From Candidatus Aenigmatarchaeota archaeon (GTDB lineage: Archaea; Aenigmatarchaeota; Aenigmatarchaeia; GW2011-AR5), in assembly GCA_018304605.1 (NCBI GenBank), contig JAGVVU010000009.1, forward strand, positions 1-40,669: a DNA stretch of 40,669 nt, given 5' to 3'. Below, one piece after another: positions 1,434-33,172 of the stretch; position 1 is the first letter of the stretch, and each line of letters begins with the position of its first letter. The notes beneath the pieces were generated by a model. That model saw only the letters and a list, made by a program, of their open reading frames with translations, had not been told where the DNA came from and ran no database searches. The position numbers were made by a program, and so were the translations under genes.

Positions 1434-1485
1434 ACATACTTTATTTCATTCCCCCGACTTGAGAAAAATATTTGACTTAATTATT

Positions 1486-1561
1486 TATAGTGAATCCCGT
1501 ATGAAGGATTCATATATAGTGCACAAGGAAACTAATATATTCAGGTCCTTATAGAGCTATA
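1486..1561. repeat. TATAG palindrome array 1 (two modules)
   Basis: TATAGTGAATCC-cgtatgaa-GGATTCATATATA followed by TATAGTGCACAAGG...CCTTATAGAGCTATA. Confidence 0.8.
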
Positions 1562-1574
1562 AATGGCATGATAC

Positions 1575-14759: not shown

Positions 14760-15470
14760 ATGTTTCTCGACAGGCCGATTCTTGCCATTTTCGCGCATCC
14801 CGACGACGAATCTTTTATCGTTGGGGGCGCGCTGACATTTGCCGCGAGGAAAACACAGGTTAAGATTATTGTTGCAACACGCGGCGAGAAGGGAAAGCGC
14901 TACATTGATTATGAAATAGGGGACGAAAATCTTGCCGCGATGCGCAGAAGGGAGCTTGAGGATGCAGCAAAAGCTCTGGGCATCAAGGATTTCATTGTTT
15001 GGGATTACAAAGACGGGCAACTTGACCAGGCTGATGAGAAAGAAATCGTTGCCAGACTAGTTAATGAAATACGCGCTTTCAGCCCGGAGAGCGTTCTTAC
15101 ATTCGGCCCAGACGGTATGACAGCTCATCGCGACCATATCGCTATAGGGAAATTCGCAACGAAAGCTGTTGCGCAGCTCGGAAATGTGGAATTGTTTTGG
15201 GTTGCGAGGCCGAGGCATGTGATTGAAAGCAATAAGTGGCATCGAAATGGGGCCCAATATACAAAAGCTTCAGAAGTGCCTTACAATGACGATGAGTTGA
15301 TTCGCATAGATGTAAGCGATGTTATCGATTCCAAAGTGAAGGCTATTTCCTCCCACGCAAGCCAGGGACCCGGAAGATATCTGGCTTCTGGAATGAAAGA
15401 ACTTATCAGCTCCGAATACTTCTACAAAGTCAAAGAAGAAATTCTCAAGAGTTACAGATATAGTGAATGA
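14760..15470 (+). CDS. LmbE/PIG-L-like deacetylase
   Basis: ILAIFAHPDDESFIVGGALTFAA...FGPDGMTAHRDHIAIG. Confidence 0.92.
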   Translation: MFLDRPILAIFAHPDDESFIVGGALTFAARKTQVKIIVATRGEKGKRYIDYEIGDENLAAMRRRELEDAAKALGIKDFIVWDYKDGQLDQADEKEIVARLVNEIRAFSPESVLTFGPDGMTAHRDHIAIGKFATKAVAQLGNVELFWVARPRHVIESNKWHRNGAQYTKASEVPYNDDELIRIDVSDVIDSKVKAISSHASQGPGRYLASGMKELISSEYFYKVKEEILKSYRYSE

Positions 15471-15553
15471 CATAATATTTCATACAAAACTGATGCCATT
15501 CACATATAGCACTGACAAACTATTATGTACAACAACTTTTGTCAGATGCTATA
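15459..15553. repeat. TATAG palindrome array 2 (two modules)
   Basis: TATAGTGAATG...CATTCACATATA and TATAGCACTGACAAA...TTTGTCAGATGCTATA. Confidence 0.85.
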
Positions 15554-15554
15554 G

Positions 15555-16852: not shown

Positions 16853-17016
16853 TAGATTCATTGAAAACTGCCATCTTCAGATGGCAGATGAAACACAATG
16901 AATCTGGGATCCCATCTTCCAACACAAGAATGAGCAAAGCTCATTCCGTGCAGGATGGCTCTTCGAGCCATCCTTGCAAACCCACGACTTTAGTCGTGGG
17001 ATATAAGGAAGATGTG
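16853..17016. repeat. Nested multi-hairpin element, copy A
   Basis: AGATTCATT(16854-16862)/AATGAATCT(16897-16905) enclosing one hairpin, then CATCTTCC(16913-16920)/GGAAGATG(17007-17014) enclosing three hairpins. Confidence 0.85.
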
Positions 17017-28100: not shown

Positions 28101-28430
28101 AGAATGCATTGAATACTGCGGTCTTTAGACCGCAGATGAAACTCAATGCATTCTGGATGCCATGTTCCCAGATACCCCATGGCTTTAGCCATGGGTTATA
28201 AGGAACATATCATCTTAGATTCATTGAAAACACACGGCTTTAGCCGTGTGATGTGGGAAAAGCTTTGCTTTTCCTGCACAGAAAGACTTTCAGTCTTTCT
28301 TGTGAAACATAATGAATCTGGGATCCCATCTTCCAACACAGGAAGGAACGAAGTTCCTTCCGTGCAGGATGGCTCTTTGAGCCATCCTTGCAAACCCACG
28401 ACTTTAGTCGTGGGATATAAGGAAGATGTG
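28101..28430. repeat. Nested multi-hairpin elements, copies B1 (28101-28208) and B2 (28215-28430)
   Basis: B1: AGAATGCATTGA/TCAATGCATTCT and ATGTTCC/GGAACAT; B2: AGATTCATT/AATGAATCT and CATCTTCC/GGAAGATG, each enclosing hairpins. Confidence 0.88.
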
Positions 28431-31544: not shown

Positions 31545-31577
31545 AAATATCTGCTAAGTATAGAGGCAAAGACGATT

Positions 31578-31672
31578 TATAGTTGACCCAGAAAAGAATC
31601 TGGACATGTTCTGGGTCAACTTATAGCGCTCAAGTAAGTATAATATCCAAATTATTTACTTGGAGCACTATA
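31578..31672. repeat. TATAG palindrome array 3 (two modules)
   Basis: GTTGACCCAGAA..TTCTGGGTCAAC and AGCGCTCAAGTAA..TTACTTGGAGCACT with TATAG/CTATA flanks. Confidence 0.88.
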
Positions 31673-32491
31673 AACCTTCCTTATTTTCGCCACGAAAAAT
31701 CCGCCTGTATTGTTATGGAACGGGTATATGCGCATGCATCTCTCGAGCCGTGGATCGTACTCTTTGCCTTCCCATGAAGTCAGTCCGTTTGCGTGGTTTA
31801 TCTCAACATCAATTCCGTCCAATTCTGCATCTTTGTTCTTTTTCAGCAAAGTATCAATTACATCTTCGTTTTCCTCGGGCCCGAAGGTGCACGTTGAATA
31901 GACGAGCGTCCCGCCTTTTTTCAATATTTCAAATGCATGCAGTACAAGTTTTTTTTGCTTCTTCGCCAGCAGTTTGATTCGTTTTTCCGACCAGTGCTCG
32001 AAGATCTTGTCGCGCTTGTTCACCATTCCTTCGCCGCTGCACGGCGCATCGAGCAGGATTTTGTCAAACTCGCCATCGATCTTGCGCCCGGACTTGTTGA
32101 TCACGTCAGCGCTAAGTCCGTACTTGTTCACTACCCAGCTAAGGCGCTTTACCCTGAACCTGCTTATGTCATTGGCAGTGATATGCGCCTCGTTGTGCGT
32201 CATGAAGGAAAGGATGAACGTCTTTGTTCCGGGCGCGGCGCACATGTCAAGTATCTTGTCGCCGCTCCTTGGTTCTAGCGCAAGACACGGCACGAGCGAT
32301 ACGGGGTCAAAGATGAATGCATCTTTCCTGTCAAAATCATCAGGAACATAATATGCACACCCACACCACGGGACTTTTTCCAGGCTCATGGGTTTTCTGG
32401 AAAGCATGCACTTTCTTGTTCTGCCCTCGTAGATATTCGCATTCATCCCGAGCTTTTGCAAGCTCTGCCCGAGTTTCTCTGGTATTCGCAT
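31652..32491 (-). CDS. NSUN/NOL1-type RNA m5C methyltransferase
   Basis: MCAAPGTKTFILSFM...LLDAPCSGEGMVNK...YSTCTFGPEENEDVI. Confidence 0.92.
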   Translation of the reverse strand: MRIPEKLGQSLQKLGMNANIYEGRTRKCMLSRKPMSLEKVPWCGCAYYVPDDFDRKDAFIFDPVSLVPCLALEPRSGDKILDMCAAPGTKTFILSFMTHNEAHITANDISRFRVKRLSWVVNKYGLSADVINKSGRKIDGEFDKILLDAPCSGEGMVNKRDKIFEHWSEKRIKLLAKKQKKLVLHAFEILKKGGTLVYSTCTFGPEENEDVIDTLLKKNKDAELDGIDVEINHANGLTSWEGKEYDPRLERCMRIYPFHNNTGGFFVAKIRKVYSAPSK

Positions 32492-32772: not shown

Positions 32773-32820
32773 AGGAAGAAGTAGCCAGGAAATGCTTAAT
32801 AGACTACTGGCCGTCTGGAT

Positions 32821-33128
32821 TATAGCTGACCAACTTAATATTCAAGTATTACACAAGTTGGTCACATATAGTAAACCAAGTTATAATATCCGGGTTATTT
32901 ACTGGGTTAACTATAACTATAAACACGCTAGTGAAATCGGAAATATATGGATGATGGATTTAGCGACCAGACACATTGCTATAGGTTTCACGTAGGTAAA
33001 GATCTTGATCATTTTGATTTCCCCGGATCAGTTATAGCTCTACAAGGAAACAATCTGGATATATTACTTCCTTGTGAGCTATCTGTGAACCCACAAACAT
33101 GTCCGGATTCTTTTGTGGGTTCACTATA
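32821..33128. repeat. TATAG palindrome array 4 (at least four clear modules plus a degenerate middle)
   Basis: Modules 32821-32870, 32867-32915, 33033-33083, 33080-33128. Confidence 0.85.
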
Positions 33129-33172
33129 AGGCAAGAACTGTCTAGGAGATAATTTCTTTCAGATAAGGGGAC

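Follow-up and report, generated by a model that had tools for sequence, protein, structure and literature searches.

Double-hairpin elements that insert at TA in an order of Aenigmatarchaeota are probable MITEs of the IS630/Tc1-mariner type

The window (the whole 40,669-nucleotide stretch analysed here) comes from a Candidatus Aenigmatarchaeota MAG with a 972-kb assembly, and its genes are of archaeal type (EF-2-like, Rpb2). The segment 32821-33128 contains two complete copies of a ~98 bp element, A and B, each made of two hairpins, with 115 bp of unrelated DNA between them. Element A (32820..32916; R1 covariance model E 6.7e-11) is assigned to the minus strand, chosen so that its type II hairpin reads first, matching B. 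From sequence and fold, its type I hairpin (32820..32866, minus strand) has TATAG at the outer and CACA at the inner end, with stem TGACCAACTT/AAGTTGGTCA, and its type II hairpin (32867..32916, minus strand) has TATAG at both ends. Element B (33032..33129, plus strand; R1 E 1.2e-17) comprises a type II hairpin with a bulged T (33032..33082, plus strand; TATAGCTC[T]ACAAGGAA...TTCCTTGTGAGCTAT) and a type I hairpin with the outer end CTATAA (33083..33129, plus strand; GTGAACCCACAAA...TTTGTGGGTTCAC). Both elements start with TTATAG and finish with CTATAA. When they were folded as single-stranded DNA, z values of -4.9 (A) and -9.3 (B) were obtained, and 0 of 200 shuffled sequences folded as well. 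The first-pass annotation had described strong hairpins with TATAG/CTATA ends, which is correct, and its four clear modules are two elements of two hairpins each. It had also placed a degenerate centre within one long array. The DNA between A and B (32918-33031) has no R1 match, and its folding (z = +0.75) does not exceed that of shuffled sequence; 32821-33128 is therefore not one long array.

A third complete copy lies at 31577..31673 on the minus strand (R1 E 2.1e-14; DNA fold z -8.7). This is the neighbouring array to which the modules had been likened, and it belongs to the same family, R1 finding all three copies (E 1e-17 to 7e-11). Two weak, probably decayed copies were matched on the minus strand at 1485..1562 (E 5.3e-4) and 15458..15554 (E 2.5e-4). 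Elements were intergenic in the cases looked at, and a copy on host contig C26 starts directly after a stop codon. The 31577-31673 copy overlaps the final 22 nt and stop codon of an RsmB/F-like gene (31652-32491; ORF, Pfam). This methyltransferase gene takes its final codons and stop codon from the element (31652-31673); in the relative G001 it ends a few codons earlier. Another repeated hairpin set occupies 16854-16974 and 28101-28388 of the window and consists of AGATTCATTG...CAATGAATCT, a nested hairpin and then ccgtgcAGGATGGCTC/GAGCCATCCTtgcaaacc; related sequence is found in a loop at locus L030 and beside an element at L039.

An element combines two hairpins in opposite orientations: type II, with TATAG at each end and often one bulged T, and type I, whose outer end is TATAG and whose inner end is CACA. 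Across 29 distinct elements, 93.4% of cells in the stem pairs (n = 23) were paired, compared with 81.3 ± 0.9% after shuffling, which leaves relatedness in place, and at most 45% in slid controls, which also keep it. Two-sided changes were seen in 12 stem pairs, with few G-U intermediates. Pairing above the controls and two-sided changes together indicate that the stems vary by compensated substitutions. Unrelated but complementary stems had earlier been set against conserved loops; complementarity with compensation stands, but the contrast was overstated. Column entropies, computed from 44-45 distinct copies, are similar in stem and loop, the loops being about as variable as the stems. TATAG is invariant, stem changes are confined to a handful of compensated positions, and in the loop a variable centre is flanked by two conserved islands (about ARAATC..GGAYAT). 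Loops had been noted in both orientations, and the two hairpins within an element are indeed inverted relatives; the mean best ungapped loop match was 8.4 inverted, 7.3 direct and 7.1 shuffled, which is a modest signal.

The GG motif lies exactly 24 letters from TATAG in 40 of 44 modules of type II and in 44 of 45 of type I; its distance to the inner arm varies. Fixed outer and drifting inner spacing is as expected of a terminal repeat that is recognised from the end of the DNA, and would not be expected of a loop merely centred in a symmetric hairpin. The ends form a terminal inverted repeat: TATAG...CTATA is accompanied by an inner motif, also inverted and at a constant spacing, and the stretch between the two differs from one end to the other.

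Covariation of this kind could have a mutational origin. Quasipalindrome correction acts on long near-perfect arms; template switching between arms could be the main cause of stem covariation without selection, and the scarcity of G-U intermediates is consistent with this. However, B-type type II stems hold the bulged T at one fixed position across 25 distinct arm pairs while neighbouring pairs change, and repeated copying should tend to erase a bulge. Because the bulge position is fixed, arm copying alone is disfavoured as the keeper of complementarity, and we regard template switching as a possible but doubtful main cause. It addresses the covariation only and is compatible with the elements being MITEs.

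In the host genome, A and B match ~36 separate places. Copies of B on contigs 43 and 47 are 100% and 99% identical, respectively, and copies of A are 93-97% identical on other host contigs and 94-95% identical in G007, G002 and G003. The elements are thus short (~98 bp), gene-less, multi-copy and dispersed among unrelated flanks, as MITEs are. Scanned with R1, the host and its relatives showed the family in 21 of the 31 genomes sampled from the order. Matches per genome numbered 54 in the host, 47 in G003, 44 in G005, 101 in G007, 66 in G020 and 55 in G030, values that are upper bounds because one element can match on both strands. No match fell outside the order among 145 genomes of the phylum, all 20 genomes with a match belonging to it. 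A pattern search of a named genome collection (host records excluded) returned almost only Candidatus Aenigmatarchaeota MAGs, including archaeon GW2011_AR5, and kinship with these genomes places the host; there was no match among viral contigs; pattern matches in Thermodesulfobacterium and Micrarchaeota have no hairpins and were taken as chance. On host contigs C15, C39 and C41 (L033, L028, L035), element flanks look identical to those in archaeon GW2011_AR5 (L067, L072, L055), whereas identity to that genome is no more than about 70-83% on contig C26. Judged from these contig differences, the host bin may be a mixture of two populations.

Orthologous sites in G001, G002 and G003 lack the elements, and their intergenic sequence is highly diverged. 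Empty and filled sites could be compared in G007, where a sister two-hairpin family, C, has dozens of near-identical copies, many of them intact. Other C copies are interrupted by A/B-type elements at two TA sites, singly or together. At the first, TTAA becomes TTA[TAG...CTA]TAA with two different elements; at the second, CATAAC becomes CATA[TAG...CTA]TAAC. Where one and the same interrupted C recurs, its copies may stem from a single insertion, so that about three independent events are represented. We conclude that A/B-type elements insert at TA and duplicate it, the element being about 94 bp between the duplicated TA (TA-[TAG ... CTA]-TA). Conversely, the loops of A-type hairpins contain C elements, with a TATA overlap. 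The small mobile palindrome family suspected at the outset is thus borne out by dispersed copies, one of them 100% identical, by nested empty and filled sites with TA duplication and by a sister family linked to IS630.

Other DNA enters the elements as well. A separate family of ~52-bp cassettes, with two tight hairpins, 8-9 bp variable stems and loops of about 3 nt, occupies the TA-rich junction of the main hairpins or a loop (L019, L028, L029, L033, L035, L049, L057, L066, L068, L175); TA is duplicated relative to single-TA junctions, not at TATA junctions. Two different IS110-family elements lie inside double-hairpin elements (L121 705-2031, G015:C21; L048 1501-1744, G015:C72; L122 1501-2088, G020:C62), landing at the mid-junction or in the stems; that of G015 occupies the same mid-junction (CATATAG) in two different double-hairpin elements. 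IS110 was rejected as the parent, since it was found in 2 of 40 genomes and is located inside elements.

These results bear on whether the hairpins act as RNA, either as a conserved structured RNA or as processing or stability sites in transcripts. Covarying stems, stable folds and an intergenic location in the cases looked at would suit such a role. The copies are nevertheless dispersed among unrelated flanks, duplicate TA and nest in one another; their fixed spacing runs from the DNA end instead of lying symmetrically about the loop, and their near-inverted layout is similar on either strand. The hairpins have no Rfam match above the gathering score, 5S rRNA being the only such family in the window. 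Sequence inspection showed no T-run 3' of the hairpins, CTATAA being followed by varied flanks, in agreement with the earlier view that they are not simple terminators. Nothing was found in support of RNA processing sites, which had also been proposed, and we consider an RNA role very improbable.

A connection to a known transposon came from family C. In G020, an IS630-type element (L123/L128/L129/L168/L170) encodes a DDE_3 transposase with helix-turn-helix domains, and both of its ends start with TATAGATAACTGC. The end sequence TATAGATAAYTGC bounds C two-hairpin elements and 49-bp one-hairpin elements; it occurs 57 times in G007, against 0 for a reversed-pattern control, also in G014, G020, G005 and G021, and once in the host genome. 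C carries the IS630 end TATAGATAACTGC and part of its inner motif. Of the 17 positions past the shared 13-mer, 11-15 are the same in the best C copies and the IS ends, and the mean over all 16 ends tested was 9.2, compared with 5.5 for shuffled sequence. The shared 13-mer and the extended likeness of the ends make it very probable that C is an IS630-derived MITE. Hairpins adjoin two of the IS630 ends in G020. The 49-bp one-hairpin elements at L164 (G014:C26) and L166 (G007:C1), TATAGATAACTGC...GCAGTTATCTATA, look like two overlapping IS630 ends alone.

The first-pass annotation had named a match to a known IS or MITE end family as grounds for refuting its view; family C shows such a match to IS630 ends, and for the window's own A/B family the likeness is partial. 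A/B elements have TATAG, the TA target and the layout in common with the IS630 end, but the inner motif is similar, not identical, and lies at 24 instead of about 20 letters. A search of the relatives' transposase loci found no autonomous parent with A/B-type ends, and the IS630 loci of G005, G014 and G021 have no A/B-like hairpin ends; by eye, TAGTAYYATGACAA seems to terminate the G005 IS630, and TATAGTCAATGAC possibly terminates the G021 IS630 on its right side. A parent split among half-elements was also rejected, no transposase lying between halves in the stretches read. DDE_3 genes were found in only 4 of 40 relatives, and none was found in the host, G003 or G007 despite many element copies, in assemblies that are 77-90% complete.

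A transposase that works on single strands deserves consideration here. An HUH/Y1 enzyme, like those of REP/RAYT and IS200/IS605, would read folded hairpins and so select complementary stems and a fixed bulge; the strong covariation and the constant bulged T of B-type stems are consistent with this. In addition, a Y1 (IS200-like) gene (G000:C30:32678-33040; L092) lies about 120 bp downstream of host element L030. By eye, however, this gene is preceded by a separate hairpin of its own. Y1 genes were found in 11 of 40 genomes, and there was no Y1 match in G003, G005 or G007 despite 47, 44 and 101 model matches, in assemblies that are incomplete. Furthermore, TA is duplicated at insertion, whereas, to our knowledge, IS200/IS605 elements make no target duplication. 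Movement by an HUH/Y1 enzyme is, in our judgment, improbable.

On balance, we think it probable that the elements are MITEs mobilised in trans by a transposase of the IS630/Tc1-mariner type and that each hairpin is a terminal repeat whose outer arm is mirrored. Judged by sequence comparison, the A/B family of the window is most likely mobilised by an IS630-type enzyme. Such an enzyme would cut at the TATAG ends and insert the element at TA. The terminal inverted repeat that it is predicted to bind comprises the outer arm and loop motif, that is, TATAG, a lineage-specific outer stretch and, at a constant distance, approximately RAATCYGGAYAT. The inner arm would mirror the outer stretch, and the module would thus resemble two overlapping transposon ends. 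A one-hairpin unit would be two such overlapping ends, and two units joined at a TA would give the common two-hairpin element, which probably arose in this way. The junction would stay a favoured TA-rich target for additional units, and the persistence of the elements could be explained without any host function.

One point against the MITE interpretation is that a terminal repeat alone needs no complementary inner arm. Either both arms are usable as ends, or an extruded hairpin is recognised, or one arm is copied to the other. The second option would imply that DPANN archaea have a group of TA-inserting DDE-type transposons with ends read as extruded hairpins, not as linear double-stranded repeats, which we consider unlikely. 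If it were true, selection would act on arm complementarity and the fixed bulge, not on arm sequence, and end sequences would be free to drift between lineages.

The IS630/Tc1-mariner element of G020 resembles the elements in its TA target, its TATAG end and an inner motif like the loop motif; unlike them, it has a transposase gene and an end that no mirrored arm turns into a hairpin, and this end is identical only to that of C. In BOX elements of Streptococcus pneumoniae, which are modular repeats too, the number of middle modules varies and secondary structure is strong. The elements are likewise modular and structured, but the hosts are unrelated, and the modules here have TATAG/CTATA boundaries and TA as their insertion site. 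IS110 elements land in REPs, as they do in the elements described here. Aligned copies have TATAG/CTATA ends and lack a REP-type GTAG/CGTC tag at the hairpin foot; this absence, the duplicated TA and the lack of consistent co-occurrence with Y1 set them apart from REP/RAYT. REP/BIME sequences with RAYT (Y1) are likewise described as many small extragenic palindromes in inverted pairs (PMC2817692, PMC3733652). Among published systems, RUP of pneumococcus comes closest, a mostly intergenic 107 bp MITE with about 100 copies, a TA target and a link to IS630-Spn1 (PMC2229807); it shares the size of about 100 bp, the absence of genes, the TA target and the tie to IS630 through terminal repeats. RUP is tied to IS630 directly, whereas here it is the sister family C, not A/B, that is tied to it by end sequence, and PMC2229807 describes no two-hairpin architecture with covarying stems. 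MITEs have been reported from several archaea (PMC10969869). The literature searched, a scope lying mostly outside subscription journals, yielded no report of MITEs in DPANN and no papers on GW2011_AR5.

The double-hairpin elements belong to a known kind of mobile DNA, of which they are a variant apparently undescribed in the literature searched. They contribute insertions by the dozen to genomes of ~1 Mb in an archaeal order with small genomes, where they nest in each other and are landed in by IS110. With their covarying ends, they provide a natural test between a DDE transposase that selects DNA hairpin structure and palindromes kept perfect by mutation alone.
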